DNA of 53,075 nt. It comes from Lachnospiraceae bacterium (GTDB lineage: Bacteria; Bacillota; Clostridia; Lachnospirales; Lachnospiraceae). The DNA lies in NCBI GenBank assembly GCA_017962105.1, contig JAGCVY010000049.1, positions 1-53,075 of the forward strand. The letters are read 5' to 3'. Positions 2,543 to 51,508 of this stretch are shown in pieces. The translations under genes and the position numbers were made by a program. The notes beneath the pieces were generated by a model. The model ran no database searches. It was not told where the DNA came from and worked only from the letters and a program-made list of their open reading frames with translations. Numbering within the stretch: position 1 is the stretch's first letter; each line of letters begins with the position of its first letter.

Positions 2543-5149
2543 TCACACCGCGATGTCCGGCGTCGGTCTCGAGAACAGATAGCCCTGGGAATAATCGATC
2601 CCGTACTTCATAAGCATCTCCTGGATTTCCTCGTTTTCTACGAACTCAGCTACGATGCGGACCTTCTGGTTGCTCAGCTGGCGCCACCCCATGATCAGCG
2701 TGATCAGATGCTCCGCCTCACGGCTCTCGCAGCATTTGCGGATGATGGAGCCGTCGATCTTCAGGAAATCCGAGTTGATGCCGACAACATGCTGCAGGTT
2801 GGAGTAGCCGCTGCCGAAATCGTCGATGGAAATCTTTCCTCCCAGCTGATGGATGCGGTCGACGAAGCTGTCGATTACCTCGTACGCGTCGACATCCTCA
2901 TTTTCCAAAATCTCAAACACGAAATTCTCCGGATGCTTCACCTCGGACAGGAAGTCGTACAGGTACTCCATCGTATCGCGGTTTTTGATATCCCGGATGC
3001 CCAGGTTGATGCTGACGCTCACCCCCTCCGCGTTGCGGAAGCGCTCGCACACCTTGTGGATCATGATGGAGGAGGCCGAATCGTACAGGAGTCCGTACAT
3101 CCGCGCCACATCGAGGAACCGGTATGGTGAGTACACGTTGCCTTCCTCGTCCACCAGCCGCATCAGCGATTCGTAGTGGTGGATCGTCCCTGTGGCGTTA
3201 TCGTGAATCCCCTGATAATACGGGATGATCTTGTCATGGGCGATCGCATAGTTGATCAGGTTCACCATGCGGTAGCGTTCGCGGATGCTCTCCTCATCCG
3301 ACTGGAACGACCTTGTGTCGCACACGTAGAACTGGGTGTTTTTGCTCATCATCAGAAGGCGGGCCGAGTTGTACACCGGCTTTAAGTTCTCCACCGTGCA
3401 GCCGTTGATGACGCAAAATGTCGGAACGATGGCAATCAGGCTCTCCGACGAGGAGAACAGTTCCCTCTGCAGAAACTCCATGTCCCTGGCCATCTTCTGC
3501 AGGGATACCGTGAACGAGGTCGCGCCGATGGCGACGTTCCAGTCGTCCAGCGCGTACATCCGGTAATTGTGTTTCCTTGCGAAGTCGGCGCATTTGCCGA
3601 GATATGCCCGCCGGGTCAGCTGGACCGTTGCCTCGTCGAAGACGATCTTCATGCTGGAGGTGTCGAGGACGCTGATCAGACAGATGCGGTCATACCCCTT
3701 CAGCTTAATATCCATATTCATTGCCGCTTCGTTGGGGATATCGTCATTTTCCGAATAGAACAGCTTGAGCTCGCAGTCGCGGACGAAGGACCGCATGCTG
3801 GACGATCGGTTGGAGCCCGTGCCTGCGTAGCTCTCGATCTCCATGAGGTACCCAAGCAGGGCCTGGTTATCCGCCGCGAGGGAGTCGGTGTGGGAAAATG
3901 CGTACGGATTGCACTCCTGTGTCTGGGATTTCTCTCCGATCACCGACACGGCAAATGCACAGTCCGCGAGGGTGTTCCGTCCGTTAGCGAAGACGATCTC
4001 GCCCTCCGTGACGCAGCCGCAGATGTTGGAATTCTCGTAGGCGGAAAGCTCCCACTTGGCGCAGTTGGAATAGATGAGCAGACGGGCTGCTCCGGCGTAT
4101 CCGAAGATGGTCTCCGCCTTCTCAAAGTTCTCGATATGGTTGAACATGACACGGTTATCCGAGATGATCTTCCGGTCGTAGATGAAGGCCCGGCGGAACT
4201 TCCTTCCCGCCGTGACCGAATGGTTCGTGACAATATAATCTTTCTTTGTATTTTTATCCAGATCCGGACGTCCCGCGAACAGCTTCGCGTTGGCGGGATC
4301 CTCCTCGGGGAACATCTCCGCAAGGCTTACGTTCTCCACATAGCGGATCGGAACGGGAATGTCAGGCATATCCGAATAGACCAGCGGGAACAGATTGGTA
4401 AGCTCCGGCCTGTTGTGAAGGGCCTCGCCGATTCCCGTGCAGTACTCTTTGGAGGCGTCGATGCCGCCGAGTCCGAGGATACAGTTCCCGAACGCGTCCG
4501 TGATCTCGTACTCCTCGCCGATGGCCTGCACTCCTGTGGCGTAGGTGCTGAAGCTCTCGACCTTTTCGCCGCCGATCGCCGCCATCAGAAGGCCGCTTGA
4601 GGTCCAGCCGTACTCGTCGAAGACAAACCCCGCCTTGCACTCCTTCTGCTGGCCGATCTCCGAAGCGTTCACGATACCTCCGATCATCTGGATCCCCGGC
4701 TTGCATTCGTTGCTTCGCTCCACCATGCTCTGGATGTCGAGATAGTTTCCCGCAAGGAATGTGAGGATCAGCTTCGTATCCTCCGAGAGTACCCTGCTCT
4801 GGGCCGTATGGCAGACGTTGTCCACCGTGATCGGCAGACCGGTGTCCTCGTCGCGGGTCGGAATGATCGTCGTCTGCACATGTCCGCCGTCCATCTGGGT
4901 GACGGAAATGATGCACTGGTTCATCAACAGCTTCCCACGGGAGATCACCGCCGACGTGCTGGTGCCGACAATCTTCGCCGCGGGCACGATCGTCTTGATG
5001 AACCGCGCCAGCTCGACCGCCTCATCCTCCAGATGAATCGCCGTGTGGATCCGGATCAGGATGTCCCCCTTTTCCGTCTGCAGCATCAGCTGTTTCAACG
5101 CCGACTCCAGTCTGGCTTTGGAGATGTACTGATAGTTCCACGTAAACAT
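2543..5149 (-). CDS. FIST-domain sensor with degenerate GGDEF and an EAL c-di-GMP phosphodiesterase domain
   Basis: An 868-residue cytoplasmic protein. Residues about 20-370 match FIST_N plus FIST_C, a small-ligand sensing module. Residues about 455-600 look like a degenerate GGDEF domain (YALDDWNVAIGA where the active site would be). Residues about 615-865 are an EAL domain: YESLMR replaces the EALxR signature, while SINLG, FEILEN, IDDFGSGYSN, LKIDGSII, VAEFVEN and SQGYLFSRP keep the metal- and base-contacting residues. It is therefore probably an active phosphodiesterase hydrolysing c-di-GMP. The ATG has GGAGG upstream. It heads a likely operon with the LacI-fold sensor. Confidence 0.88.
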   Translation of the reverse strand: MFTWNYQYISKARLESALKQLMLQTEKGDILIRIHTAIHLEDEAVELARFIKTIVPAAKIVGTSTSAVISRGKLLMNQCIISVTQMDGGHVQTTIIPTRDEDTGLPITVDNVCHTAQSRVLSEDTKLILTFLAGNYLDIQSMVERSNECKPGIQMIGGIVNASEIGQQKECKAGFVFDEYGWTSSGLLMAAIGGEKVESFSTYATGVQAIGEEYEITDAFGNCILGLGGIDASKEYCTGIGEALHNRPELTNLFPLVYSDMPDIPVPIRYVENVSLAEMFPEEDPANAKLFAGRPDLDKNTKKDYIVTNHSVTAGRKFRRAFIYDRKIISDNRVMFNHIENFEKAETIFGYAGAARLLIYSNCAKWELSAYENSNICGCVTEGEIVFANGRNTLADCAFAVSVIGEKSQTQECNPYAFSHTDSLAADNQALLGYLMEIESYAGTGSNRSSSMRSFVRDCELKLFYSENDDIPNEAAMNMDIKLKGYDRICLISVLDTSSMKIVFDEATVQLTRRAYLGKCADFARKHNYRMYALDDWNVAIGATSFTVSLQKMARDMEFLQRELFSSSESLIAIVPTFCVINGCTVENLKPVYNSARLLMMSKNTQFYVCDTRSFQSDEESIRERYRMVNLINYAIAHDKIIPYYQGIHDNATGTIHHYESLMRLVDEEGNVYSPYRFLDVARMYGLLYDSASSIMIHKVCERFRNAEGVSVSINLGIRDIKNRDTMEYLYDFLSEVKHPENFVFEILENEDVDAYEVIDSFVDRIHQLGGKISIDDFGSGYSNLQHVVGINSDFLKIDGSIIRKCCESREAEHLITLIMGWRQLSNQKVRIVAEFVENEEIQEMLMKYGIDYSQGYLFSRPTPDIAV

Positions 5150-5246: not shown

Positions 5247-5404
5247 TACTACTGCAGGGTAAAATACGATGTTTTTTCTGATGAAACCTGCGGGGATACG
5301 GTTTCTCCCGTGCAGCCGGCTCATTTTTCGTACAATGTGCAAGAAAATCCGCCATACCCGGCTTTTTCGCAGAATATGTTATGCAATCGGAAAATGCTCG
5401 GAAA

Positions 5405-6724
5405 TCACACCTTTCGCAGGTACAGCTGCACGACAAATCCGTTGTCGTTATACACCTCCGCACCGCCGCCCTGCTTCTCCATGTAGGAGCGGACGAGGTA
5501 CAGACCCATGCCGAACCCCGCCTTATCCTTTGCCGTACTACCGCGGTAGTACTTACTCATTAAAAGCGGGAGTTCTTCCTCGGGTGCCCCCGGGCCGTCG
5601 TCTTTTATGCGGATGCTGACATAGGATGCTCCGGCTCCGTCCCGGTCCTTCCGGGTCACCTCCTCAAAGCTGACATGGATGTCCGTGCCGGCGTACTTTC
5701 GGGAGTTTCCGACGATGTTGTCGATCACCTGCTCCATTCTCAGCCGGTCCATGTACACAAGGCAGGAAGGGATGGCATTTTGTATGATAATGTTCCCGTA
5801 GTTTTTGAGATTCCGGAAATACTCCTCGATAACCGTGGAGCCCTCCTCCTTCGGGTTGACCTCAATGCGGTCGAGTTCCTCCAGCGTCGCCTCAAACACG
5901 CTTCCCATAAGGCTCTCGATCATCTCCGCCTTGTGGGCGATGGTCCGGGTCTTCTCCAGCACATCCTCGGCGTCCGCCAGGACCGCGGACCTCTCCGCGT
6001 CCGAACCGGCCTCCAACTGTGCGATCCGCCGCTTCTGCTTCACCTCAACCACCTCGCAGGTCGCGCGGATGGTCGCCACCGGCGTTTTGATATCGTGGGC
6101 AAGCTCCGCGACCAGCTCCTTTTTCGCCTTCTCGGCCTCCGCCTCGCGCTCCTTGGAAACCCGCAGCTCCTCGCGCATCAGGTCAAACCCCTCCACCAGG
6201 TTTCCGAAAGGGTTGTGTTTGCGGATTGGAAGGGGCACGTCGAGATTTCCCTTGGCAATCTCGCCCGCCACGTTTCGCATCTCCTGCATGGGCCGCAGCA
6301 GGAAGCGGTTGATAACAAAGAGAAACACAAGGCCGACGGCGAAGATCACTCCCCAGAAGACCAGCATTTTCCGTCTCATGTCTTGGTGGGACTTCTCGAA
6401 TCCCTCCCCGACATCATCCCAGATCACGCGTCCGACGACCTCGCCCTCAGGCGCAAAATCCATCACAAGGGCATACTCCGAGTACGCCTTGATCACCGCG
6501 GCATCGGATTCCGCGGCAGGGACGATCCGGCATCCGTAGGTCTCCTCGATCTGCGGCAGCGTCCTTCCCGCCTTGTAGTCCGCATAGATTTCATGGATCG
6601 TGTCGTTGTATGCGACCATGTCCCGTTTTTCCGCCCGGTTTCCGGGCGTGAGAAGCCAAAGCACCGCGAGCGCTGCCAGCATGATGAAAACATACGCGAT
6701 CACAATTCTGTTCCGGTACTTCAT
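5405..6724 (-). CDS. Membrane sensor histidine kinase
   Basis: A 439-residue kinase with transmembrane segments at about 7-25 and 119-140 enclosing a short extracellular loop of about 90 residues. It continues with a HAMP linker (about 141-195), a dimerisation helix with the phospho-acceptor H210 in AELAHDIKTP, and a catalytic ATPase domain with N box NIVGNSRKYA, G1 box DDGPG and G2 box GFGMGL. Its start overlaps the response-regulator stop (ATGA at 6721-6724), so the two are translationally coupled and form one two-component system. The stimulus is unknown; neighbours include an SNF-type transporter and a MacB-like ABC pair. Confidence 0.93.
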   Translation of the reverse strand: MKYRNRIVIAYVFIMLAALAVLWLLTPGNRAEKRDMVAYNDTIHEIYADYKAGRTLPQIEETYGCRIVPAAESDAAVIKAYSEYALVMDFAPEGEVVGRVIWDDVGEGFEKSHQDMRRKMLVFWGVIFAVGLVFLFVINRFLLRPMQEMRNVAGEIAKGNLDVPLPIRKHNPFGNLVEGFDLMREELRVSKEREAEAEKAKKELVAELAHDIKTPVATIRATCEVVEVKQKRRIAQLEAGSDAERSAVLADAEDVLEKTRTIAHKAEMIESLMGSVFEATLEELDRIEVNPKEEGSTVIEEYFRNLKNYGNIIIQNAIPSCLVYMDRLRMEQVIDNIVGNSRKYAGTDIHVSFEEVTRKDRDGAGASYVSIRIKDDGPGAPEEELPLLMSKYYRGSTAKDKAGFGMGLYLVRSYMEKQGGGAEVYNDNGFVVQLYLRKV

Positions 6725-7547: not shown

Positions 7548-8912
7548 TCACATGATCAGTCCAAGCACAAGGATCACAAGGATCAGACCCGGCAGGATCA
7601 GCGTAAAATACCACCGCAGTTTTTCACTCATCCTCAGCCCTTCGCCGGTATTGACCTCCGCAAAGAACCGTTTCGGCCCGAATCCGCGTTTTGACATACA
7701 GAACATAATGATCACCAGCGCTCCGATGGGAAGCAGCAGATTGCTTACAATAAAATCCTCGCTGCTCATGATATCGCGCTTCCCGATCAGGGCAACCTCC
7801 GAGAGAACGCTGTACCCGAGCACGCAGGGAGCGCTTGCAGCGAGCATCAGCACCGCATTGATGAGGACTGACCTAAGGCGGGTCCAGCCGTGGTTGTCCA
7901 TGCCGGATGCCACCAGGTTCTCAAAAACGCCGGTAACCGTGGAAAAGCTGGCAAATGTCATAAACAGGAAGAACAGCATGCCCCAGATCCTTCCGCCCGG
8001 CATCTCCGCGAAAACGCGGGGAAGCGTGACGAAGATGAGGGACGGTCCCTCCGTCGGTTCGATCCCGAAGGAAAAGCACGCCGGAAAGATGATCAGCCCC
8101 GCGATCAGCGCGACAAACGTATCCAGCGCGCAGATTTTCACGGACTCGCCGGCAATCGTGTACTTTTTGGACATGTAGCTGCCGAAGATCTCCATGGCGG
8201 CAATTCCGATGCTCAGGGTGAAGAACGCCTGGTTCATCGCTGAGGTAACGACCCGGAAAATGCCGACCTCCCGCACGGTCTCCATGTTGGGACGGAGTAA
8301 GAACCGAAGCCCCTCCCCGGAGTTTTCCAGCGTAAGACTGTTGACCGCCAGCACCAGGATCAGCCCCAAAAGTCCGAGCATCATGATCTTGTTCACGCGC
8401 TCCAGTCCCTTCTTCACGCCGAGGCTGATGACGGCAAAACCGACGCCGATGATCAACGCCGTATAGATTCCCATCTCCGCGGGATTTTCCAGCAGGTTGT
8501 TGAATACCAGGGCCACCTGGGTAGCCGGAACCTCCCTGAAATCCCCGAACAGATACTTCAGAAAATATGCGAACATCCACCCCGAAACCGTGGTGTAATA
8601 CATCATCAGGAGAAAGCAGCCGGCGAGGCAGAGCCAGCCGTGAAGGTGCCATTTTCCGCCCTTGCGCTCTAACGCCTTATACCCCGCAACGATGGTCTTT
8701 CCGCTGGCGCGGCCGATGCTGAGTTCCATCGCAAGCACGGGAATTCCCATAAGCACGAGAAACAGAAGGTAGAACAACACGAAGATCGCACCGCCGTTCT
8801 GTCCCGCGACATATGGGAATTTCCAAACATTTCCGATTCCGATCGCACAGCCCGCGCTCACCATGAGGAACCCGAGCCGGCTTCCGAAACCCTCTCTTTT
8901 TTCCTGTTCCAT
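7548..8912 (-). CDS. Neurotransmitter:sodium symporter (SNF) family transporter
   Basis: A roughly 454-residue polytopic membrane protein with 11-12 hydrophobic segments. The first carries GCAIGIGNVWKFPYVAGQNGG, the sodium/substrate signature of the NSS (SNF, LeuT-fold) family, which imports amino acids or related amines with Na+. A longer frame starts at 8933, but GGAGAGG stands six or seven bases before the internal ATG at 8912, so I place the start there. It has its own promoter (8949-8977), stands just downstream of the ABC permease gene and is followed by the two-component system after 50 bases. Substrate is not predictable from the sequence. Confidence 0.92.
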   Translation of the reverse strand: MEQEKREGFGSRLGFLMVSAGCAIGIGNVWKFPYVAGQNGGAIFVLFYLLFLVLMGIPVLAMELSIGRASGKTIVAGYKALERKGGKWHLHGWLCLAGCFLLMMYYTTVSGWMFAYFLKYLFGDFREVPATQVALVFNNLLENPAEMGIYTALIIGVGFAVISLGVKKGLERVNKIMMLGLLGLILVLAVNSLTLENSGEGLRFLLRPNMETVREVGIFRVVTSAMNQAFFTLSIGIAAMEIFGSYMSKKYTIAGESVKICALDTFVALIAGLIIFPACFSFGIEPTEGPSLIFVTLPRVFAEMPGGRIWGMLFFLFMTFASFSTVTGVFENLVASGMDNHGWTRLRSVLINAVLMLAASAPCVLGYSVLSEVALIGKRDIMSSEDFIVSNLLLPIGALVIIMFCMSKRGFGPKRFFAEVNTGEGLRMSEKLRWYFTLILPGLILVILVLGLIM

Positions 8913-8985: not shown

Positions 8986-11385
8986 TTACTCCTCCGTAAT
9001 CATCTCCACCGGCTTCATGCTGCGCACCCGCAGGCCCATGACCGCCGAGCTGAGGGCTGCCATCAGCAGGATTCCCGCTGCCGTCAGTACCATCCAGCAG
9101 ATCGGTGTGGAGAAATTGATCTTCTTCAGTCCGAAGAGGGAGAAGATTGCCTTGCACAGAGCACCGCCTGCCCAGTCGGAAACCGCTACGCCGATAAGGC
9201 TTCCTAAAAGCACCGCCGGAAGGTTCGAGAGCATGATCTGCAGGATCAGCTGGCCGGAGGTTGCCCCGAGGGCCTTGCTGATGCCCATGTCCCGCCACTC
9301 TCTCGTGATCTTCGCGCGGATGATCAGCGACTCCGTGAAGACCACAATCATCAGCGTGATCACCGCAATGACAACGCACAGGATTTTCATGGCCGTGGCC
9401 ACGGTTCCCATGGTTGAGTGCATATTCTTCTCGGAATCCACCAGGACGATGTCGCTGTTGTCATGCGCCTTAGCGATCTCCGTCACCTTGTCCTTCATAT
9501 CGTCGAAGGTGATGCCGTCCTTCACCGAAATGATGACATCCATCTTGGTGATGGGTCCGAAGATCTTCTCTGCGCCGGGGATTGTCAGGTTGGCGGTACG
9601 GCCCATGCGCTCCATGCGCTGGTCAAAACCGGTGACGATGTATTCCATCGTCTTGGTTCCGTTCTTGATGGTCACGACATCGCCGATGCCTGCGCCGAGA
9701 TCCTCCGCAAGAGCCTTGGTGAGCAGGATCTCATTGTCGTGGACCGGAACACGGCCCTCCAAAAGCATCAGGTTGACGCGGTGATTCACATCGTCATCGA
9801 CATAGACGTATGCGCCCTGCTCCTTGTCGCCGAACATGATGGTCGGCTCGAAGCCCTTCTGCAGAAGGACGTTGGTCACGCCGTCCATGTTCCGGAGCTC
9901 GTCGACATAGGAGATGTCAGCCTTCGTAATGTAAACCGTTCCGGCCTCCATTCCCATGATCTCGATCAGTGAATCCTCCCTCGCACCGAAGCTCTCGTAC
10001 ATGCCGAAGCCGCATGTCATGGCGATGGCTAACACCGCCGCGATAACCGCGAGAAGGATGCTTCTCCGCATCCCGCCCAAGGTGCTCTTAAGAGACATCG
10101 CAACGGACAGCGGGAGACTCGTCTTATCCAGAGGAACATAGTTTTTCTTGTAGTTGTGGGTGCTGATCCCGCCGCGAAGCGCATCGAGCACGGTAATCTT
10201 CTTATAAGCCCGTCCGATCAGCATCGAAAGGAGGAAGGTCACAACGGCAAATCCGTAGATCGTCGCTAAAGCGACACCCCAGGAGATCGGCGCGTTCCAG
10301 GTAAGTCCCAAAACCGCGCTGACCAGATTCCCGAAGGCGTTTCTTGTGAGGATCGCAAGACCGACGCCGATCTTCGCGCCGATGTAGGCCACAGCCGTGA
10401 TCTGTACCACAAGCGCCATACGGAGCATCGAAGCCGTGTAGCCTGCTGCCTCCAGGATACCGGTATTTTTCATGTTTCTCGTGATGAAGTTGCGGACGCC
10501 GTGGGAGATGATGACAAAGGCGATCACCAGGATCAGCACCGCGAACATCAGCACCACCGCCATCACCACCTGCGGAAGGAACTTCGTTCCGCCGCTGATC
10601 ATGTGCCAGTTCACCGAGAAATAATTGTTGTAATCATAGTCCGGATTGGCCTCCATGTAAGGAGTGATCTTCCGGAAGAAGCTCTCGGTGACCTCCTTTT
10701 CGGTGGTCTTCGTGTTCAGTCCGGCATCCAGCGACGCCTGCTTCACATGCCCGCGGTACACCGTACCGAACCCGGCCCGCGCAGGATTTTCCGCGACAAA
10801 CCGGTCAAGGGCAGCCTGCGAAAAGTAGCAGTAGTATGTCGTGATGTTGATGGACGACGAAAAATAAGGATCCTCCACATAGCCGGCAACCCGGAAGGAA
10901 TACACGTTGTCGCCGAGCTTGATCTCAAGCGTATCCCCTACCGCAAAACGGCCCTTCAGAAAGTACGGCAGTAGCACATCGTCGTCCCCGAGGTTCGAGC
11001 TGTCAATGCCCATGTTCATGTACCGGGGATTGGTCTTGAAGCACTCCGCGAGGAACTGGTACTCCTCGAAATCCCTGGTCTTCGCGTTGCGGTATTCCGC
11101 GTACATGCGCATGAACGGAACGGTTTCCACATCGTCGATGTCGGCATTTTCCGTCATCGCCTCCGTCCAGGCTGCGGTCTCCTCCGGCGAGTTGCCGGCA
11201 AGGATCATGACGTGTGCGCCGTTGACTTCCTCAAAGCGGTTGTCCATCACATCCTGCAGTCCCAAAAGCACCGAAGCACACTGGAAGATCAGATATGCGG
11301 AGAGGATCGAGAACAGAAGGAAAGTGATCATATCGCCCTTCTGCTTCTTCATGTTGTGCCAGGCAACAAAGAAAAGTTTATACAT
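8986..11385 (-). CDS. MacB/FtsX-type ABC transporter permease
   Basis: A 799-residue membrane protein with an N-terminal anchor (about 15-40), a large extracytoplasmic region (about 45-260), a helical bundle (about 275-400), a second extracytoplasmic region (about 470-650) and three helices at the C-terminus (about 665-790). This duplicated FtsX-domain layout is found in MacB, LolCE and BceB-like mechanotransmission ABC systems, which act on peptides, lipoproteins or cell-wall-active drugs. It starts one base after the ATPase stop (11387-11389), so the two are co-translated. A role in defence against an envelope stressor is an inference from family and arrangement. Confidence 0.9.
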   Translation of the reverse strand: MYKLFFVAWHNMKKQKGDMITFLLFSILSAYLIFQCASVLLGLQDVMDNRFEEVNGAHVMILAGNSPEETAAWTEAMTENADIDDVETVPFMRMYAEYRNAKTRDFEEYQFLAECFKTNPRYMNMGIDSSNLGDDDVLLPYFLKGRFAVGDTLEIKLGDNVYSFRVAGYVEDPYFSSSINITTYYCYFSQAALDRFVAENPARAGFGTVYRGHVKQASLDAGLNTKTTEKEVTESFFRKITPYMEANPDYDYNNYFSVNWHMISGGTKFLPQVVMAVVLMFAVLILVIAFVIISHGVRNFITRNMKNTGILEAAGYTASMLRMALVVQITAVAYIGAKIGVGLAILTRNAFGNLVSAVLGLTWNAPISWGVALATIYGFAVVTFLLSMLIGRAYKKITVLDALRGGISTHNYKKNYVPLDKTSLPLSVAMSLKSTLGGMRRSILLAVIAAVLAIAMTCGFGMYESFGAREDSLIEIMGMEAGTVYITKADISYVDELRNMDGVTNVLLQKGFEPTIMFGDKEQGAYVYVDDDVNHRVNLMLLEGRVPVHDNEILLTKALAEDLGAGIGDVVTIKNGTKTMEYIVTGFDQRMERMGRTANLTIPGAEKIFGPITKMDVIISVKDGITFDDMKDKVTEIAKAHDNSDIVLVDSEKNMHSTMGTVATAMKILCVVIAVITLMIVVFTESLIIRAKITREWRDMGISKALGATSGQLILQIMLSNLPAVLLGSLIGVAVSDWAGGALCKAIFSLFGLKKINFSTPICWMVLTAAGILLMAALSSAVMGLRVRSMKPVEMITEE

Positions 11386-11386: not shown

Positions 11387-12223
11387 TTACCACCCCATTT
11401 CCTGCAGGAAGCTCTTTAGCTTCGTATGACGCTCCTTCGCGGTTGCCAGATTCGGATTCGTCTCATCGCGGTAGTCGCCCGCGTACGGTCCGAGGTCGAG
11501 TTCTGCGGTGATGACGCCGTCCGCAAGGTACAGGATGCGGTTGCCGCGCTCCGCCGCCTTGGTGGTGTGGGTCACCATCACGATGCTCTGTCCGTCGTCG
11601 TTGAGCTCCGTGAGGATGTTTAAGACATTTTCCGTATTCTGGGAGTTCAGGGCACCGGTGGGCTCGTCCGCGTAGAGGATCTCCGGCTGGTTGATGACTC
11701 CGCGCACCACGGCCACGCGCTGCTGCTGTCCGCCGGAGAGCTGGGTCGGGAACTTGCGCTGATCCTGCTCGGGAAGCTCCACGCGCTCGAGAAGCTTCTT
11801 CGCGCGCTCCGCCAACGCCTTGCGGTCTCCGCCCTTCAAAAGCCCGCACACCATGACGTTGTCGAGGGCGCTCATGGAATCGTTTAAGTAGTTCTGCTGG
11901 AACACAAAGCCCGCGTGGTCCCTGCGGAATCTCGCAAGCTCGTCGTTGCTGTACCGGGAGATTTCCTTCTCGCCGCCGTCGACGCCGTAGGTCACGGTGC
12001 CGAGGGTCGGCCGGTCCATGCCGGAGAGCGTGTACAGAAGCGTGCTCTTGCCCGATCCGGAGTTTCCCATGATCACGGTGAAGTCACCGCGGTAGATGCG
12101 CAGGTTCAGGTTTTTCAACACGTGCTGCTGGACGCTTTCGTTGGAAAATGTCTTGGAAAGGTCCTTAGCGGTCACGATGCATTCCCTCTTGGTCTCGTTT
12201 GTTTCGTTCTTGATCTCTGTCAT
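11387..12223 (-). CDS. ABC transporter ATP-binding protein (MacB/LolD/Bce type)
   Basis: About 278 residues with Walker A GNSGSGKST, Q-loop FVFQQNYLND, signature LSGGQQQRVAVVRG, Walker B ILYADEPTGALNS and H-loop VTHTTKAAE, all intact. An open frame extends to 12286, but only the ATG at 12223 has a ribosome site (GAGGG, eight bases upstream), and the extra 21 residues do not look like protein. It energises the permease encoded immediately downstream. The gap before it carries direct TCTTA repeats that could bind a response regulator. Confidence 0.93.
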   Translation of the reverse strand: MTEIKNETNETKRECIVTAKDLSKTFSNESVQQHVLKNLNLRIYRGDFTVIMGNSGSGKSTLLYTLSGMDRPTLGTVTYGVDGGEKEISRYSNDELARFRRDHAGFVFQQNYLNDSMSALDNVMVCGLLKGGDRKALAERAKKLLERVELPEQDQRKFPTQLSGGQQQRVAVVRGVINQPEILYADEPTGALNSQNTENVLNILTELNDDGQSIVMVTHTTKAAERGNRILYLADGVITAELDLGPYAGDYRDETNPNLATAKERHTKLKSFLQEMGW

Positions 12224-13262: not shown

Positions 13263-13925
13263 TCACTTCACCGCTTCCAAACGGTCTCCCCACTTCACTA
13301 ATTTTCCGTCTGCAAGAACCCCGACATAATCGGCGATGTCCGAGACCTCCGTCACAAGATTGGTCGCCATCAACACGGTCATCTTCTCCTCCGCGACAGC
13401 CGTCTGCAGAAACTCCAGGATGTCCGTCTTAAACACGGGATCCAAACCTGCCAGGGGCTCGTCCATCAGCAGAAGCTTCGGATGTCTTGCCAGGTGGAAC
13501 GACATCTCCGCCTTGCATTGCTCACCCGTGGAAAGATTCCTGAACGGGGTAGCCTGCAGGTCGGTAAGCCCCGCCTGGGCAAGCAGTTTTTCATAGTATC
13601 CGCCGTCAAATCCGGGATACAAAAGCCGCAAAATCTCCGCATTTGCCCGCAGCGTGGCCCCGGTGTCACACCATTGTTCGCCGATATAGGCAGCCTCCTG
13701 ATGGTATGCGGGAAGCATTTTCCGGGTCAGCGGCGAACCCTTCCACAGGACCTCCCCGCTTTTCGGCGGAAAGATTCCGTACAAAAGTTTCAGAAGCGTC
13801 GTCTTGCCGCTGCCGTTCTCCCCCACCAGGGTGTAGATCAGGCCCTCTTCCAGTTTGAGCGAGATATCCTGCAGGCGAAAGCCCTTGGAATCATATTGAA
13901 AACTCACATTTTTCGCCTCGATCAT
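13263..13925 (-). CDS. ABC transporter ATP-binding protein with an altered H-loop
   Basis: A compact 220-residue ATPase: Walker A GENGSGKTT, signature LSTGEQ, Walker B LLLMDEP followed by LAGLDP. At the switch (H-loop) position the protein reads ATNLVTEV, Asn where nearly all ABC ATPases have His; the sister ATPase in this operon has SSHLVTEL. This may weaken hydrolysis or make it the non-catalytic half of a pair. It lies 10 nt after the GntR gene and just before the membrane protein at 12423-13253. Confidence 0.85.
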   Translation of the reverse strand: MIEAKNVSFQYDSKGFRLQDISLKLEEGLIYTLVGENGSGKTTLLKLLYGIFPPKSGEVLWKGSPLTRKMLPAYHQEAAYIGEQWCDTGATLRANAEILRLLYPGFDGGYYEKLLAQAGLTDLQATPFRNLSTGEQCKAEMSFHLARHPKLLLMDEPLAGLDPVFKTDILEFLQTAVAEEKMTVLMATNLVTEVSDIADYVGVLADGKLVKWGDRLEAVK

Positions 13926-14322: not shown

Positions 14323-15054
14323 CTACACACATTTCATCGTTTCAAAGGTCTCCGGCCGGTACGACTTTCTCAAGCGGACAAACCGGATAAGCGCCAACAC
14401 GATCCCGACGGAAAATGCTGTGATCCACACGGTCTTCTCAAAAAACGGCGTCTCGCCGGCCGGTCCCGATGACAGGCCCATCATTCCCGGGATCAATATC
14501 ACGATCGGCAGGATCCGGCACACCGCATCCGTGATCCAGAATATTCCGCGGACCTTCCGGTCATCCACGGAAAATTTCCCTGCCCGGATGGCCTTCCGGA
14601 GGGATTCCGTCCCGTCCGCACTCAAAAACAGGTTGTACATCACAATGCTCATCAGAATGCACATCAAAAGGTGCAGTACCGGGTTGTAGATCAACGTTCC
14701 GTTGGCAACAAACCAGTTGTATAAGGTCGAGTGAAACCCGTCGGGCTCTATCACCAGGAGGGTGATACCGCATTGAATGACATAGCACAACAGACACAGG
14801 ATCGTCTGCTCCAGCCATACGCACCGGATCCGGCCGAGTCGTTCTTCCCGCAGCTCCTGCGGGGTCCTCGGAAGCATGCCTTCGGCCTCGGAAGCCACCG
14901 GTGAGAACGTCAGGCTCAGACTTGCGGTGCAGATGAGCGCGAAGGGCCGCACCCAGGAGGCCGCAAAAACAAACAGGATTTCAAACACTGCCCATGCCCA
15001 CATCCACGGGTGGTCACGGAAACGGATCCGTTTTCGTCTCAGATATTCTCTCAT
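14323..15054 (-). CDS. Multi-pass membrane protein, probable ABC permease
   Basis: A 243-residue protein with about five or six hydrophobic segments (about 18-50, 83-105, 120-145, 165-190, 205-225) and charged ends. It lies 31 nt after the ABC ATPase at 15086-15991 and 18 nt before the GntR gene, so it is the probable membrane partner of that ATPase. No family signature is recognised. Confidence 0.7.
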   Translation of the reverse strand: MREYLRRKRIRFRDHPWMWAWAVFEILFVFAASWVRPFALICTASLSLTFSPVASEAEGMLPRTPQELREERLGRIRCVWLEQTILCLLCYVIQCGITLLVIEPDGFHSTLYNWFVANGTLIYNPVLHLLMCILMSIVMYNLFLSADGTESLRKAIRAGKFSVDDRKVRGIFWITDAVCRILPIVILIPGMMGLSSGPAGETPFFEKTVWITAFSVGIVLALIRFVRLRKSYRPETFETMKCV

Positions 15055-39771: not shown

Positions 39772-39800
39772 AGTGTTTCACCCCATTTTCCGATTTTTTA

Positions 39801-39854: not shown

Positions 39855-41264
39855 TCACTTACCGCAAAGAGCCTTGTCAATGGCCGCTGCCGCTGTCTTG
39901 CCTGCGCCCATGGCGCTGATGACGGTAGCTGCACCGGTGACGGCGTCTCCGCCGGCGTACACGCCCTCGCGGGAGGTTAAGCCGTCCTCGTTTACGATGA
40001 TACCGCCCTTGCGGTTCACCTCGAGGCCCTCCGTTGTGGACTTGATGAGAGGGTTCGGGCTCGTTCCGATGGCCATGATCACGGTGTCGACATGAAGTTC
40101 AAACTCGCTCCCCGGGATTTCCACGGGACGGCGTCTTCCGCCGGCGTCGGGCTCCCCGAGCTCCATGCGGATGCAGCGGATCCCTGTGACAAAACCGTTT
40201 CTCAGGTCTCTCGGATCCTCGGGATTGTTGAAGCCGAGGATTTCGGTCGGGTTGCACAGAAGGTTGAACTCAATGCCCTCCTCTTCCGCGTGCTCGACCT
40301 CCTCGCGTCTCGCGGGCAGCTCCTCCATGGAACGGCGGTACACGATGTAAACCTTCTCCGCACCGAGACGAAGTGCCGTGCGGGCTGCATCCATGGCAAC
40401 ATTGCCGCCGCCGACAACCGCCACATATCCGCCCTTCATGATCGGCGTGCTGGAATCTTCGCTGTAAGCCTTCATCAGGTTGCTTCTCGTGAGGAACTCG
40501 TTGGCCGAATAGACGCCCTTGTAGGACTCGCCCGGAATGTTCATAAAGTTCGGAAGACCGGCTCCCGATCCGACAAATACGGCCTCATAGCCCATCTCGA
40601 ACAGCTCGTCGATGGTCAGCGTCTTGCCGATGATGACATTGGTTTCAAAGACGACCCCGAGATCCTTCAGGGATTTCACTTCCTTCGCCACGATCGACTT
40701 TGGAAGACGGAACTCCGGGATACCGTAGACAAGCACGCCGCCCGGGGTATGCAAAGCCTCGTACACGGTCACGGCGTATCCCTTCTTGGCAAGGTCGCCC
40801 GCGCAGGTCAGTCCGGACGGGCCGGAACCGACAATCGCCACGCGATGGCCGTTGCACGTGCGTATTCTCGGAGTCTCGATCACATTCTCGCTGTGGTAAT
40901 CCGCAACGAAGCGTTCCAGACGGCCGATGCCCACCGGCTCGAACTTGATGCCGAGAGTACATTTGCTCTCGCACTGGGTCTCCTGCGGACATACACGTCC
41001 GCAGACCGCCGGAAGCGACGACGTCTGCTGGATGATCTGGTATGCGGCCTCAAAATCCCTCTTCGTGATCATTGCGATGAAATCGGGAATATTGACGTTG
41101 ACCGGGCAGCCGCTCACACAGGGGCGGTTCTTGCAATTCAGGCAGCGGGAAGCCTCTGCCATGGCAATCTCCACGGTGTAGCCGAGGGCCACCTCTTTAA
41201 AGTTGCGTGCGCGCACCTCGGGCTCCTGGGTCGGCATCTCATGTTTTTTCGGATCAATTGGCAT
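39855..41264 (-). CDS. NADPH-dependent glutamate synthase small-subunit-like protein (NfnB / GltA type)
   Basis: 469 residues. An N-terminal iron-sulfur domain has CLNCKNRPCVSGCPVNVNIPDF and CGRVCPQETQCESKC, binding two [4Fe-4S] clusters. Then come an FAD fold (VAIVGSGPSGLTCAGDLAKKG) and an NAD(P) fold (VAVVGGGNVAMDAARTALRLG), ending in GVYAGGDAVTGAATVISAMGAGKTAA. With the gene before it this makes an electron-bifurcating NADH-dependent ferredoxin:NADP+ oxidoreductase. The frame runs back to 41411, but GGAGG stands before the ATG at 41264, which overlaps the partner's stop by 11 bases. A stand-alone glutamate synthase role is the alternative. Confidence 0.9.
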   Translation of the reverse strand: MPIDPKKHEMPTQEPEVRARNFKEVALGYTVEIAMAEASRCLNCKNRPCVSGCPVNVNIPDFIAMITKRDFEAAYQIIQQTSSLPAVCGRVCPQETQCESKCTLGIKFEPVGIGRLERFVADYHSENVIETPRIRTCNGHRVAIVGSGPSGLTCAGDLAKKGYAVTVYEALHTPGGVLVYGIPEFRLPKSIVAKEVKSLKDLGVVFETNVIIGKTLTIDELFEMGYEAVFVGSGAGLPNFMNIPGESYKGVYSANEFLTRSNLMKAYSEDSSTPIMKGGYVAVVGGGNVAMDAARTALRLGAEKVYIVYRRSMEELPARREEVEHAEEEGIEFNLLCNPTEILGFNNPEDPRDLRNGFVTGIRCIRMELGEPDAGGRRRPVEIPGSEFELHVDTVIMAIGTSPNPLIKSTTEGLEVNRKGGIIVNEDGLTSREGVYAGGDAVTGAATVISAMGAGKTAAAAIDKALCGK

Positions 41265-42129
41265 TTTCCGCACCTCCCTCTGCCTTGCGGAAGAGGTTGC
41301 ACGCCTCTTCGTAAGCGCGTTTTTCAAAGCCGGCGTACATTCTGCCGCGGGACATCGCCTCGTCGAAATCGATCTCGTATCCGTTGAAGTCCGGGCCGTC
41401 AACGCAGGCAAACCGCGTCTCCTTCGTGCCGTCCTCCTTCACGAGAGTGATCCGGCAGCCGCCGCACATGCCCGTGCCGTCGATCATGATCGGGTTCATC
41501 GATACCGTCACCGGCACGCCGTAAGGCTTTGCGGTCAGGGTCACAAACTTCATCATGATCAGAGGGCCGATGGTGATGATCATATCAAACTTCTCGCCGG
41601 CGTCCAGCATCTCCTTGAGGGGCACCGTCACGTTTCCATGGCGCCCGTAGGACCCGTCGTCGGTCATCACGACGAGGCGGTCGGAGCAGGTCGTAAACTC
41701 GTCCTCAAGGATCAGAAGATCCTTGTTGCGGAAGCCGATAATGCTCGTCACCTCCGCGCCGAGCCGGTGGAACTCCTGCGCAACGGGCATCGCGATCGCG
41801 CAGCCGACGCCGCCACCCACGATACACACCTTGCGGATTCCCTCCGTCTCCGTTGCCTTTCCGAGAGGTCCGGCGAAATCCTGAATGAATCCGCCTTCCT
41901 CCTTATGGTTCAACTTCTCCGTCGTGGCACCCACGATCTGGAAAATGATCTTCACTGTCCCTTCATCCGTGTTCATGCCCGCCACCGTAAGCGGAATGCG
42001 CTCTCCGTCCTCATCGACGCGCAAAATGATGAACTGCCCCGGTTTGGCCTTGCGAGCCACCAGCGGAGCCTCAATCTCCATCTGCGTCACGGTCGGATTC
42101 AGATTCTTCTTGTGAACAATCTTATACAT
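41254..42129 (-). CDS. Ferredoxin-NADP+ reductase-like subunit (NfnA / sulfide dehydrogenase type)
   Basis: 291 residues. FAD-binding barrel (about 1-100; GQFIILRVDEDGERIPLTVAG), NAD-binding fold (VCIVGGGVGCAIAMPVAQEF) and a Cys cluster for [2Fe-2S] near the C-terminus (GTGMCGGCRITL ... RFACVDGPDF). This is the NfnA/SudB pattern. The real start is the ATG at 42129; the preceding 26 codons of the frame lie in the upstream terminator region. Translationally coupled to NfnB. It balances NADH, NADPH and reduced ferredoxin in the anaerobic cytoplasm. Confidence 0.92.
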   Translation of the reverse strand: MYKIVHKKNLNPTVTQMEIEAPLVARKAKPGQFIILRVDEDGERIPLTVAGMNTDEGTVKIIFQIVGATTEKLNHKEEGGFIQDFAGPLGKATETEGIRKVCIVGGGVGCAIAMPVAQEFHRLGAEVTSIIGFRNKDLLILEDEFTTCSDRLVVMTDDGSYGRHGNVTVPLKEMLDAGEKFDMIITIGPLIMMKFVTLTAKPYGVPVTVSMNPIMIDGTGMCGGCRITLVKEDGTKETRFACVDGPDFNGYEIDFDEAMSRGRMYAGFEKRAYEEACNLFRKAEGGAENAN

Positions 42130-42222: not shown

Positions 42223-45200
42223 TCAATGAGTATCTGTACTGTTTGACAGATCCTTACGGTTCGTCATGACCCTGTAGCTTATCCGGTCGCTCAGTCTGAC
42301 GGTTGCGGTATCACCGGACCGTTCACCCTTCGCCCCATACGTGTAGGTATGCTCCTCGGAGTAGTTGGCTGTCATCTTCTTCGAAATGTAATCGATCTTC
42401 TCCGCAGCGATCCGGTTGTTTTCATCGTAGGTGTAGGTACAGGTATAAGCAGAATCGGAACCGATGTAACGATCCATAAAGAGCTCGGTGAGAACACGGC
42501 CCTCCGCATCGTAGGAATACGACTGCGTATAAAGCTCTTTATCCCCCGTGGTGTCATAGGATGTGTATGTCATCAACCGATCGTCCTTGTATTCTTTGTT
42601 CTCCGACACACTGCTCCAGGTCCACTGACCTCCTTCAACGGTAACCGTGCCTTCCTTCATCACATTGTCGGTATCCCACAGGGAGCTCTCAAAAATATAC
42701 GGAACTACCGTTTCTCCGCGGAGTATTTTCCAATCGGCTTCGCTCGGACGGAGAACCCGGGCATGCTTCCACGTTCTTCCGGTATCCTCCGTACACAAGA
42801 CGGTTCCGTCCTCTTTGTAGGTGAAGGTGTACGTCCCGCGCGGAATCTCCCATGTGTCCGTCCCGGTCTGGTCGATTGAGACGCTCAAAAGGCGGTTTTT
42901 ATCGTCAAACTTGTAGGAGTAGACATTCTTGTATTTTCCGGTGATCCGGCCTGCCTGAGAATCGTACCGTCCGCCCAATTCCTCCGCAAGCCTGCCGTTT
43001 TTGTCGTATGTATATTCACACTGGTCCCAGAGCATCCCGCTGGTGGAATATCTCGCTTTCGTCAGAAGTCTTCCCGCATCATCGTAAGCGTAAGTGTAAA
43101 TACTTTCCTTATCCTGCTCGTATACGATGTTTCCCTTGTCATCGTACTTCCGATAGTCAACGGTGAAGTCTGCCTTGCCGGGCGTTACGTAAACCGAGCC
43201 GTAAGTACCGTGGATCGAACGGGCGACTTCACGGTACGTGCCGTCCTCATTGCGGAGATAATATTCCGTCTTCCGGTAGTTTCCGTTCTCATCCAGGAAG
43301 CTTCTCCGGTAATTGTAGGTCGTCTGATCGCACCGCAGATCCCACGGCACATCATGGTCCAAAAGCTCCCGGTGATAATAATCCAGCGCGAAGCGGAAAT
43401 CTTCCAGATACAGATCCTCGCGGACTTCCTCCTCGACAGTACGGTAAGAAGCCTCCTCCGCTTCGGCAAGCGCCAGTTTGAAGTATTCGCTGTCAGTGTG
43501 CTCAACAGTGATGACTGCCGGAGCCGTGGTCCGGAATTCATCCGTGACTTCGTAAAATGTGTCGTCCGCCTCGAAGCGGTCCTCCTCCAGCGAAAGCTCC
43601 GCTCCCTTGTACATCATCTTGATCGTGTAGTAATGGAAGAACGATTCGGCGTATGTGTTTACGGTAAAGACAATCGACACATCATCCCCCAGGGATACGC
43701 TGTCGGAAAATGTTACCTCAATATCCCCGTCGTCGTTCTTCTTCGTCCTGATCGATCCCTTGGGGATTACCGTGTACTGCAGATCCGCCGGGTCTTCAAG
43801 CGTTTCCAGACGCTTTAAGTTTTCAGCGAGATCCGACAGGCGATACCCAAACAGGATGTTGTCCTTCTTCGAGAAGATCACCTTTCCATCCGGTCTTATA
43901 AATTTCTGATCGCCGGGAACGACGTGCCAGTCTGTCGCCTCACCCCAGGAATTCTCCTCGTAAAGGATTGCCTTTCCTTTTCCGTCAAAATAGGCAATGT
44001 TATAAAACGATTTGTCGGAGTAGGAATAGTTCTCCGGCGAAATCCAGTTGCTCACGCAGGTCACCGTTGTCACCGGATCGCCGTGGAGGACAGAGCGCGT
44101 GACATTGATCTCCTCATCATATTGGCAATCCGCCTTCGCATCGTAGCTGTCGCCTTCGTTCCAACGGTCTCTCTGAACGAACATGGTTCCGACTAACATG
44201 TCGCTTCCGTTCGTAAACCGGAAACAGAACTGCACACTGTAGGAGAACAGGATGCTGTTATCCTCCGACTCCGCATATCCGATGGCAGCATGTTCCGTCA
44301 CCACCAGCTCGCCGAAATTCTCAAAAGGGATCGTCTCCAGCAGTTTCTCCCGAACAAGGATGTTGTCCTTGAAAGCTGCCTGCAGCTCCTTCTTGTATAC
44401 CAGGGCGCTGTTCTCAAATGTTTCCTTGTGCTCCGCCGCATAGCGCTCGCTTTGGAACTCCGCATACGGGCGATTATCCTTGTCCTTCGCAGTCAAATGA
44501 AGGATCGCAAGCTGTTCAAAAACCTCATCCCGATCACTCCAATACTCCTCCGTGTAAAGCGTATTGAGATTATAGCCGTATGTATTTTCCTTCTGCGAAA
44601 AAACGGGGGCATAAACATCCACGGAATCCATCCCGTCGAAGTGCCAGGAAGCAATCGGATAGTCATCCGTGACGCCGGATCTCCACACCTCTCCCCAGAT
44701 CTTCAGGCCCTCCCCGAGATCATAGGTGTCCTTGTAGGCGTCACTCTGGTAAGCGTCGTCGTGGGTGACTTTTTCTTCAAACCCGGGAACCGGATAAACC
44801 TTTCCGTCGGCGTCAAAAATTTTGAACGATTTCCGGATGTCCTCCATCGTCGTTTTGAGGAACACGTCTTTCTCTCCCTCGGAATACAGAACGGTTCCAT
44901 CCGCCGCCTGGATCACGACGTTTCTCACAATCTCAGATTCGCCGTACGGGATCGACTTCTTCGATGAATACAGGACCGTTTTGCCGGACGGCGCGACATA
45001 GGCGGTGACTGTGTTATCTTTCACATTTGAAAGAACCCGGTCGGCATCGCTCTCACCCATCGGAGTCTGCGCTCTCATTCTGACTTCGGTGTATACCGGA
45101 GTAATCTTCATGGGTTCATTGTTATCCGGGAACTCATACGTGCAGCGGACGTGGAAATCCACCGTTACCGGCACTGTCTCCGCCGTCTTGTTAATTGGTT

Positions 45201-48014: not shown

Positions 48015-48071
48015 CCTGAGGATTTCTTAAATAAATCTAACCTGATACGCTCCTCCCGGAACGGAAAATGC

Positions 48072-49012: not shown

Positions 49013-51508
49013 TTACTCGTATTTCAGTTCCGTGACTACGCTCAGCTTCTTACTCTTCCGCATTGTGGAAAGCGAAGCGATGAAGACGATCACGGTAAAT
49101 GCCGCAAGGTAGACCGGCGTGCTCTTCCAGTCGAAGAGGATGTCGAACGGTACGCCCATGTAGTACAACATTCCGGTGACCAGACGGTTCACAAGGAGCG
49201 AGAACGGGATCGCGATGGCGATTGCGATCACCACACACAGCATGCTCTCCGTGAGGATCAGGCGTTTTCTGGAGCCTGCGTTCATTCCCACCGAAGCCAT
49301 GACCGCGAACTCCTTGCGGCGCTGGTGGAAGCAGATCACGATGTTGTTGAAGATACCGATGCTGGAGATCACGATGGCGATGTAGGAGAAGATGGAGATC
49401 AGGTCGACGATCATCGCATTCTGATCGACGTTGTTCTGCATCTCCGTATCGCGGTCCATGTAGGTCGCACCGTATCCGGCAAGCATGGCCTTGAAGGAAT
49501 CCTCCGCCGCCTTCTTATCACCGTTGATGCTAAAGTCGATGCTCTCCGCATCTACGGCATGGTAGATATCCTTCATCTCGCTTCTCTTGATGAGGATGAA
49601 TTTGCCGCCGTTGAAGAGTTTGGCATCCGCGATTGCAGCGATGCGGAAGGTGTGCTTGGTGCCGTTCAGCTCCACCTCAAGGGTGTCGCCGATGTCCATT
49701 TTCATATCCCTTGCGAGGGCCGATGTCATCAGGATCGTGTCGGAAGAGCTCGTAAAATCCTCGTAGCCCCTGCGGTACGGATCTTCCTTCAGGTGCATGT
49801 ACAGGTTCCAGTCTGCATAAGCCTTCGGTTCTACGCCCATGATCATGAGATCCGAATCGTCGTTCTTGCCGACGTGGTACGAGATCGGGTTGATGCTCGA
49901 TGCAACCACATGCTCGTTGTTCTCAAGCTCCGCAATGATCTGCTCCGACGTGTTCACATCGGAGGTCGACGGCAGGATGTTGCTGATACTAAAGTCGTAT
50001 TCCATCTCCTCGTACGCTTCGATGACCACCTTGGTCATGGTCATACCGGTCGAGGCGCAGCTCAGGATACCGTTAAGAGAGATGATCAACAGCACGATGT
50101 TGCTGATGAGAAGCTTCGAAGTGCGGATGTTGTTACAGGCAAGCCACATCGTGGTGTTTCCGCGGAAAATCCTGCACAGCACGTTCATCAGTCCCTTTAC
50201 AAGGGCCGGCGTCACAAGGATGATGCCTACGTAGGAGGCTGTGGTCTCCAGGATACTGATCGGCGTGTAATCCTTGTGGGTGTATGCGCTGGCAACACCC
50301 GCAGCGATCAGCAGCACCGCACCGATGACCGCCTTCACGGCATGCTTCTTATGGGTCTGCTCAACACGGTTTAAGATGACATCCTTCGTCTCGAGCTTTC
50401 CGATCTTGCTGACCGGCTTCCAGGCCGATACCACCGACATCACTACGGCAAATGCCATGCCGAGCAGGACGTAGGTCCAATCGATCGAGAAGGGAAGGTA
50501 GATCCCGTAATCCTTGAGAGGAGATACATACCGGCTGACCGCATAGAGGACGCCCTCGCCGATAACGCATCCTATAACGCCGGCGATCAACGCGTACACA
50601 ACGCTCTCGAGAAGCACGATGCGCTTCACCTGGCCCTTGGTGGAACCCTGGCTTAAGAAGGTTCCGAACACCGGAAGGCGCTCGGTGATGATCAGTTTGA
50701 AGACTCCGCTGATGATCAGCGCGCTTACGATCACCACGATGGCAAGCATGCAGCCCACCGACATATACAGGGAGGAGAGATCTCCGAAGATTGCCACGGT
50801 GTTCATGATGGAAGCCTTCACCGCGGTGTTGTTCTCGTTGAACTGCTTCACCGCATCCTTGACCTCATCATCCGTCGCGTTCTTTCCGGCCTTCGCCGAA
50901 ACGACCTTGGCGTACATCGCATTGTATGCGCCGTTCGCTCCCGTCTGTTCGTTCATCCACTCATAGGGAACGATCACGCTGAAGTTTTCCTTGGTGTCCG
51001 AGTACAGAAGCCCGTCGGTAACGGCAATTCCCTTGACCGTGAACTCCACCGGGAATCCGTACACATTCATCTTGAGCGTATCGCCTGTCTTCAGGCTCCG
51101 CTCCTTCGCTGTCCGCTCGGAAATAATGCATCCGGCTTCGTTGGAGTTTTCGAAGCTCCCGTTCACCATTGCTCCGTCAAAACTCTTTCTGCCTCGCAGA
51201 GAAACATACGTGAGTTTCTCATTTTCCGAGATAACGCCCGTGCCTGCGATCTCGCCGATGAGATCCGTAAGCCCGTCTTTGGTAAAATCATTTTCCGTAA
51301 ACCAGATTCCGTCCGCAGCGTTCAGGGCGATATCCCGGCCCTCCGCTGCCTTCCTCCCGGGCTCCGTGAAGCTGTCTGAGATTGTGTTCATCAATCCCAT
51401 GCAGGTCACCAGAAGCCCCGCGCTGATCGCGACGGAGAGAACCACCAGGATCAACCGGCTCTTTTTCTCCATCATGTTTTTTCGGATGTACCGTAATAGA
51501 ATACCCAA
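49013..51508 (-). CDS. MacB/FtsX-type ABC transporter permease, second system
   Basis: About 831 residues with an N-terminal helix, a large extracytoplasmic domain (about 40-250), helices at about 265-400, a second extracytoplasmic domain (about 520-690) and three C-terminal helices. It is related in plan to the permease at 8986-11385. The frame extends to 51595, but the only good ribosome site, AAGGAGG, lies eight bases before TTG at 51508, which begins LGILLRYIRKNMMEKKSRLIL, a typical N-terminus for the family. TATACT near 51598 is a possible -10 without a -35, seven bases after TTTAAGATT, a possible response-regulator half-site. Confidence 0.9.
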   Translation of the reverse strand: MGILLRYIRKNMMEKKSRLILVVLSVAISAGLLVTCMGLMNTISDSFTEPGRKAAEGRDIALNAADGIWFTENDFTKDGLTDLIGEIAGTGVISENEKLTYVSLRGRKSFDGAMVNGSFENSNEAGCIISERTAKERSLKTGDTLKMNVYGFPVEFTVKGIAVTDGLLYSDTKENFSVIVPYEWMNEQTGANGAYNAMYAKVVSAKAGKNATDDEVKDAVKQFNENNTAVKASIMNTVAIFGDLSSLYMSVGCMLAIVVIVSALIISGVFKLIITERLPVFGTFLSQGSTKGQVKRIVLLESVVYALIAGVIGCVIGEGVLYAVSRYVSPLKDYGIYLPFSIDWTYVLLGMAFAVVMSVVSAWKPVSKIGKLETKDVILNRVEQTHKKHAVKAVIGAVLLIAAGVASAYTHKDYTPISILETTASYVGIILVTPALVKGLMNVLCRIFRGNTTMWLACNNIRTSKLLISNIVLLIISLNGILSCASTGMTMTKVVIEAYEEMEYDFSISNILPSTSDVNTSEQIIAELENNEHVVASSINPISYHVGKNDDSDLMIMGVEPKAYADWNLYMHLKEDPYRRGYEDFTSSSDTILMTSALARDMKMDIGDTLEVELNGTKHTFRIAAIADAKLFNGGKFILIKRSEMKDIYHAVDAESIDFSINGDKKAAEDSFKAMLAGYGATYMDRDTEMQNNVDQNAMIVDLISIFSYIAIVISSIGIFNNIVICFHQRRKEFAVMASVGMNAGSRKRLILTESMLCVVIAIAIAIPFSLLVNRLVTGMLYYMGVPFDILFDWKSTPVYLAAFTVIVFIASLSTMRKSKKLSVVTELKYE

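Follow-up and report, generated by a model that had tools for sequence, protein, structure and literature searches.

The window analysed here is a 53,075 nt stretch of contig JAGCVY010000049.1, one of the 105 contigs in the 2.59 Mb Lachnospiraceae assembly GCA_017962105.1. It contains many copies of a nine-base word, CGGAAAATG (the 9-mer), with the core CGGAAAAT, and this word is beyond doubt a signal, selected or driven, that spans the genome. Judged from the genomes alone, it is probably a DNA uptake sequence of a Lachnospiraceae genus, used for self-specific transformation with a minor pilin as its reader. The whole assembly contains 1060 copies (537 forward and 523 reverse), compared with 8 copies (5 and 3) of the control, which was the same word read backwards and is of equal base content. 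The enrichment described for the window in a preliminary description of this DNA is thus a property of the assembly and is not confined to the window; confinement to the window was what that description had named as a finding that would speak against its claim.

Genome-wide excess and placement of the word

Within the window, CGGAAAATG was found 26 times (10 copies on the + strand and 16 on the - strand) and the 8-mer GGAAAATG 37 times (17 and 20 copies), compared with means after dinucleotide shuffling of 0.98 for the 9-mer (maximum 5 in 100 shuffles) and 2.83 for the 8-mer. Markov models of order 2 and order 3 predicted 1.4 and 1.6 copies of the 9-mer, and by these nulls its excess is approximately 17–27 fold. 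The feature noted in the preliminary description is therefore real, although its counts (25 9-mers and 35 8-mers) were slightly low and its estimate of roughly 60-fold enrichment was too high for the window; the mixed orientation was borne out, but not the 20/15 split given for the 8-mer. Models of order 4, 5, 6 and 7 built from the window, the last two orders having been proposed as a check, predicted 3.6, 7.8, 18.3 and 27.2 copies, but such models contain most of CGGAAAATG itself and so provide no usable null for a stretch this short. The core was present in 50 copies, with G preferred as the last base of CGGAAAATG. Simple gene calls placed 11.7% of the bases of the window between genes, together with 6 of the 26 9-mers and 8 of the 37 8-mers, in place of the seven copies and the tenth of the window given previously.

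A sample of 387,220 readable bases from the same genome was compiled from the window and stretches of 17 contigs, later two more; it is not random, having been drawn by contig number with the pilus and ComEC regions deliberately included. Simple gene calls in this sample gave 304 genes covering 87.5% of bases. The core was present in 270 copies (one per ~1.4 kb) and the 9-mer in 151. Predicted genes contained 116 copies of the 9-mer compared with 9.75 after shuffling of synonymous codons (sd 2.9, maximum 18, 200 shuffles), and the DNA between genes contained 33 compared with 1–2 from Markov models. A protein-level cause, against which the preliminary description had argued, is rejected by the synonymous-codon null. 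The other counter-evidence named there, a frequency near that predicted from codons or Markov models, was found neither in genes nor between them.

Of the core copies, 209 were in genes (103 sense and 106 antisense), where all six frames were used, unevenly; for the coding copies of the window, use of all three frames had been noted in the preliminary description. The remaining 61 of the 270 were between genes, where 12.5% of the bases lie, which represents an intergenic excess. With strands assigned from local GC skew, the leading strand carried 138 of the core copies and the lagging strand 132, indicating no replication-strand bias, consistent with the distinction already drawn from the strand-polarised FtsK orienting polar sequences (KOPS). 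The forward and reverse counts for the whole assembly are uninformative on strand polarity because contig orientation is arbitrary. Single intergenic copies had no fixed orientation or distance and were fewest per base in convergent gaps. Spacing was slightly more even than random (P 0.05), counts over 71 five-kb windows were Poisson-like (dispersion 1.02), and a weak correlation was observed between word count and G+C content (Spearman 0.28, P 0.02).

The flanks of CGGAAAATG hold almost no information. Within the word, positions 2 (G) and 5–8 (AAAT) are nearly invariant and positions 1, 3 and 9 are tolerant, while single mismatches at the strict positions are not raised; this position-specific tolerance resembles binding-site specificity. 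The word is not its own reverse complement and is thus not a palindrome. Pairs of cores less than 60 bp apart occurred at the number expected from random placement (12 vs 11.5), and all 12 were inverted (P 0.0005), compared with 18 inverted and 21 direct pairs among 818 permuted control words. Close inverted pairs therefore account for 24 of the 270 core copies (9%). Six of these pairs are inside genes, two at gene edges and four between tandem genes, and their constant inversion may hint at a dimeric reader.

Conservation was assessed at the window locus, as the pilus locus offered too few words, by aligning 15 core places each with one or more of five relatives at ~76% identity. The core was kept exactly in 19 of 50 comparisons, whereas permuted control 8-mers were kept in 178 of 1122 and 8-mers overall in 15.6%. 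Since the relatives share ancestry, this outcome of the conservation check suggested in the preliminary description is supportive rather than a clean probability.

Distribution in the family and related words

The genus consists of uncultured Lachnospiraceae from herbivore guts. All 22 of its genomes that were searched were above the reversed control, with 63–1060 copies of the word, and 19 of them held 212–1060; the three lowest counts were 63, 73 and 96, not above those of ordinary family members. The closest named relatives by PilB were likewise uncultured Lachnospiraceae, several of them from rumen, goat, buffalo or horse gut, with titles mostly of Lachnospiraceae or Lachnoclostridium, in agreement with the earlier placement of the host in the Clostridia. 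The PilB tree (22 rows) contained groups of eight genomes (453–1060 copies), five genomes (212–435) and three genomes (63–96), with one (253) outside, and the ComEC tree (18 rows) broadly matched it in this grouping. Copy number thus follows the genus tree, and the gradient from 63 to 1060 copies within one genus would make the rise of the word traceable stepwise.

The wider family was represented by a sample of 150 genomes and another of 396 genomes from 317 genera, which repeats the first and includes two genomes of the genus itself. In both samples most genomes held ~30–200 copies compared with ~10–80 of the control, and some were below the control (e.g. 4 vs 22 in G065). Clear outliers outside the genus were G080 (401 vs 15) and G378 (354 vs 17), both from the genus designated g60, G095 (337 vs 20) and G216 (340 vs 5). 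Besides G216, the word was raised in further genera, namely in G297 (233 vs 19), G360 (121 vs 6) and G184 (113 vs 11); the G216 pieces at hand (11 kb, 0 copies) were too short for use.

When words were counted de novo over 137 kb of G080, the top 8-mers were GGTCAATG, GGGCAATG and GGCCAATG. The word CGG[T/G/C]CAATG (CGGBCAATG) was present 933 times in the whole G080 genome compared with 37 for the control, while the 19 other genomes searched held 40–179 copies; it is the sister word of CGGAAAATG in g60. GCGGTCAAT was raised in G080 (167 vs 4), G378 (147 vs 3) and G079 (97 vs 2), with 13–49 copies in 12 other genomes. In G095, AGGAAAATG and AGGGAAATG were raised weakly (80 kb), and a possible third dialect is correspondingly weak. 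The sister word in the form CGGTCAATG (G080 and G378; L126-L133) has CGGTCAAT in common with the extended Hin-USS, an uptake signal sequence (USS) of the Pasteurellaceae, as printed in PMC12616744; these eight common bases may be due to chance.

Recurrent words of a second kind, around CTATG(A), were observed in several genomes: CTATGAGG in G000 (16 vs 2.5), GCCTATGA in G047 (18 vs 2.0), AGGGCTAT in G013 (24 vs 2.3) and AGGCTATGA in G105 (6 vs 0.5). Separately, 10-mers of the GTGGATTGAA type were present in G013 (L116-L125) in 23–24 copies with <1 expected. These we take to resemble a CRISPR repeat array.

Pilus and competence genes and the interpretation of the word

The pilus operon of the genome contains PilB, PilT, PilC, two pilins, a prepilin peptidase, PilM and several minor pilins, and matches over curated cut-offs were obtained in this genome for pilT_fam, ComEC_Rec2 and the ComEA helix-hairpin-helix model. 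Across the genus, PF00437 ATPases were found in all 22 genomes and a full-length PilB-type match in 17. ComEC was found in 20 of 22, both misses being assemblies 79–82% complete, and DprA also in 20 of 22, the misses being the window's own assembly and one 80% complete. A ComEA-like protein is encoded near ComEC in the window's own genome, where alone ComEA was looked for. The com genes, which the preliminary description had proposed to look for, are thus present. It was observed separately that ComEC (L105:7152-9470; L051-L069) diverges far faster than PilB within the genus, at 29–54% vs 78–94% identity to the proteins of the window's own genome. The PF03432 relaxase was absent from all six genomes searched for it (G000, G006, G010, G021, G002 and G018), which may reflect few conjugative elements or loss in assembly.

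None of the minor-pilin matches, to GspH/ComGD, PilV/ComGE and others, reached its cut-off. For the model of a relative's GspH-like minor pilin (mean pLDDT, a per-residue model confidence, of 81), the top PDB matches were FimU and GspH-family structures at an E value of 0.02, above the usual limit. In PMC12616744, the receptor of the Pasteurellaceae sequences Hin-USS and Apl-USS is predicted to be a GspH/FimT-family minor pilin, ComN/PpdA. By analogy, the operon's own GspH/FimT-like minor pilin, encoded at L104:8677-9219, is a candidate receptor for the word.

In the proposed mechanism, a type IV pilus would bind extracellular DNA via a minor pilin preferring CGGAAAATG, both binding by the pilus and the choice of subunit being presumed. 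PilT would retract the pilus, ComEA and ComEC would bring one strand in, and DprA and RecA would recombine the incoming strand. Copies born by mutation would spread by recombination and accumulate to ~1000 per genome because marked DNA would enter preferentially, given the presumed bias of uptake. A second genus would use the related word CGG[T/G/C]CAATG in the same way.

Marks of uptake sequences listed in PMC1939737 are the absence of a palindrome, an inverted-pair share of ~10%, a lack of bias in orientation and a non-coding excess, and according to PMC3630211 their dialects have a common core and are congruent with phylogeny. The word matches each published mark that was tested, i.e. overabundance, no orientation bias, intergenic excess, a non-palindromic form with 9% of core copies in inverted pairs, and dialects. 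Among the three classes named in the preliminary description (uptake sequences, Chi sites and nucleoid-protein sites), the uptake sequence is the best fit on account of the sister word in g60, the abundance following the genus tree and the presence of pilus and com genes.

The pilus operon itself was found to be nearly unmarked. In the 13 kb from the start of PilB, ten relatives together held 3 9-mers, whereas 31.1 were expected from the density in each genome; the 10 kb directly upstream of PilB was at the genome rate in 11 relatives (26 copies vs 27.1 expected). The 11 operons pooled have a G+C content of 0.485, and their own order-2 model predicts 1.75 copies of the 9-mer (5 found) and 7.3 of the core (7 found); low G+C may be part of the reason for the scarcity. 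The idea that competence genes avoid the word in general was considered and rejected, since the ComEC loci of 17 relatives, with 11 copies vs 14.3 expected, were not clearly depleted, and the avoidance is therefore special to the pilus operon. Classical uptake sequences are described as scarce in genes for variable surface epitopes in PMC5031613.

Several observations weigh against an uptake sequence. The scarcity of the word in the pilus operon is not predicted by it. G013, G019 and G004 belong to the genus and have pilus genes, but hold only 63–96 copies, which is the family baseline, and no abundant substitute word was found in 200 kb each of G013 and G019, where the most frequent dispersed 9-mers reached 18 and 11 copies. 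PilN and PilO of the pilus operon were not recognised by any family, several pilus and com assignments (comE, type_IV_pilB) are below curated cut-offs, and the window's own assembly, although 96% complete, yielded no DprA. The pilin at L104:1208-1720 matches the Pfam family ComP_DUS below the cut-off (21.7 vs 27.3 bits), as does one of its 15 orthologues. A pilus is also not sufficient for the word, as pilT_fam passes its cut-off in 100 of the 150 family genomes, most of which are without such a word. In eight family genomes sampled at 100 kb each, six chosen for their high PilT score and two lacking any match above the cut-off, no comparably abundant word was found; AGCCTATGA and GCCTATGA in G047, with 8 and 18 copies, were among their strongest. 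The idea that the word goes with any pilus was accordingly rejected. Finally, the organisms are uncultured assemblies.

The main rival to an uptake sequence is a site bound by an abundant nucleoid-associated protein that organises the chromosome, placed every ~1–2.4 kb for folding or segregation, which we consider unlikely. The even spread and slightly regular spacing of the word, its presence in both orientations, its partial conservation in relatives and the inversion of all close pairs, as for a dimeric binder, are consistent with such a site. A structural site would, however, be expected to persist, whereas copy number falls from 1060 to 63 within one genus, and neither the different but related word in another genus nor the nearly unmarked pilus operon, with the DNA directly upstream at the genome rate, fits this explanation. 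Another rival is a Chi-like signal or other self-mark, by which a nuclease (AddAB/RecBCD or a defence system) would spare word-bearing DNA. A density of about one copy per 2.4 kb falls in the range of such signals, but known Chi sites work in a single orientation and are more frequent on the leading strand. Both Chi and KOPS are disfavoured by the lack of strand bias seen here, and a signal of this kind is very unlikely.

The intergenic excess and the close inverted pairs, which could form stems, would be compatible with a regulatory or RNA-level element such as a terminator stem, an operator or a translation signal. Most core copies are nevertheless in genes and in all six frames, the inverted pairs are distributed over gene interiors, gene edges and tandem gaps, and single intergenic copies lack a fixed orientation or distance and are fewest per base in convergent gaps, so that we give this explanation very little weight. 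In particular, most copies were judged not to act as terminators, with 209 of 270 in genes and only 4 of the 12 inverted pairs clearly intergenic. Least credible of all is an origin as a side effect of base composition, codon usage or biased mutation. Related Lachnospiraceae typically show a ~threefold excess over the reversed word, as such a by-product might, but here the excess is 130 fold over the reversed word and 12 fold over synonymous shuffles, and there is no rise in single mismatches at the strict positions. The shuffles, the reversed word and the synonymous shuffles rule out chance, codon usage and mutation bias.

Having weighed these alternatives against an uptake sequence, we lean towards a broader claim, namely that no DNA uptake sequence was known outside the Proteobacteria before this one. 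A Gram-positive clade would have independently arrived at self-specific transformation, using a word and dialects of its own (CGGAAAATG and CGG[T/G/C]CAATG), a GspH/FimT-type minor pilin as reader and a pilus operon kept almost free of the word. Among the matches listed in a search of open-licence full text, neither an uptake sequence in Clostridia nor CGGAAAATG as a genomic signal was reported; the ten listed of 173 papers containing CGGAAAATG dealt, by their titles, with unrelated topics, and judging by titles and the beginnings of abstracts no paper had natural competence and type IV pili in Lachnospiraceae as its subject. Such devices have so far been reported solely from two Gram-negative families. 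If the claim is true, this would be a third, independent case, implying that self-specific transformation evolves in one-membrane cells too; it would also provide a third test case for the reading of a DNA word by a minor pilin, and would mean that transformation is a route of gene exchange among Lachnospiraceae of the rumen and gut.

Table 1. Positions of CGGAAAATG in the window and its counts in the pilus operons
Feature	Position	Strand	Basis and remarks
CGGAAAATG copy	3745..3753	-	word count
CGGAAAATG copy	5388..5396	+	word count
CGGAAAATG copy	6365..6373	-	word count
CGGAAAATG copy	8254..8262	+	word count
CGGAAAATG copy	8650..8658	-	word count
CGGAAAATG copy	11145..11153	-	word count; core kept in 3/5 aligned relatives
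CGGAAAATG copy	11626..11634	-	word count; kept in 5/5 aligned relatives
CGGAAAATG copy	13716..13724	-	word count; kept in 0/1 aligned relative
CGGAAAATG copy	14409..14417	+	word count
CGGAAAATG copy	16068..16076	+	word count
CGGAAAATG copy	16595..16603	-	word count; kept in 5/5 aligned relatives
CGGAAAATG copy	18409..18417	-	word count; kept in 1/5 aligned relatives
CGGAAAATG copy	21268..21276	+	word count; kept in 0/4 aligned relatives
CGGAAAATG copy	23707..23715	+	word count
CGGAAAATG copy	25776..25784	-	intergenic; adjoins opposite CGGAAAAT (ATTTTCCGCGGAAAAT); inverted pair 25777-25792
CGGAAAATG copy	27101..27109	-	word count
CGGAAAATG copy	27704..27712	-	word count
CGGAAAATG copy	31894..31902	+	word count
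CGGAAAATG copy	38137..38145	+	word count
CGGAAAATG copy	38461..38469	-	word count
CGGAAAATG copy	39784..39792	-	word count
CGGAAAATG copy	41262..41270	-	word count
CGGAAAATG copy	43704..43712	+	word count
CGGAAAATG copy	48062..48070	+	word count
CGGAAAATG copy	51220..51228	-	word count
CGGAAAATG copy	51289..51297	-	word count
Pilus operon, own genome	L103:17006 to L104:11123		2 9-mers vs 5.8 expected
Pilus operon, ten relatives	L142, L145-L148, L151, L152, L155-L157		3 9-mers vs 31.1 expected

Comparison with known systems

The HIP1 element of cyanobacteria is likewise a highly iterated short word, but it is a palindrome, tied to methyltransferases in PMC4390886, whereas the word described here is not palindromic. 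The Chi sites of Firmicutes and Escherichia coli are alike in being short words in genome-wide excess; the present word differs in having no strand polarity.

A closer likeness is found in the DNA uptake sequences (DUS) of the Neisseriaceae, read by ComP. These are also short non-palindromic words with ~1000 or more copies per genome, associated with a type IV pilus, and share with the present word dialects with a common core that follow phylogeny, the absence of orientation bias, an intergenic excess and an inverted-pair share of roughly one copy in ten. The host here differs in being a Gram-positive clostridium in which no ComP orthologue has been established, and we take CGGAAAATG to be unrelated to the published DUS of the Neisseriaceae.

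The USS of the Pasteurellaceae occur at about one per 1–2 kb, a density similar to that of the present word. The word itself differs from Hin-USS and Apl-USS as given in PMC12616744; the last position of Hin-USS is T, at which the g60 word demands G. The present word also has almost no flank information and belongs to an unrelated phylum. The two systems are alike in their nine-base core, in their related dialects and, from weak matches, in the GspH/FimT-like minor pilin predicted in the pilus operon of the Lachnospiraceae genus.

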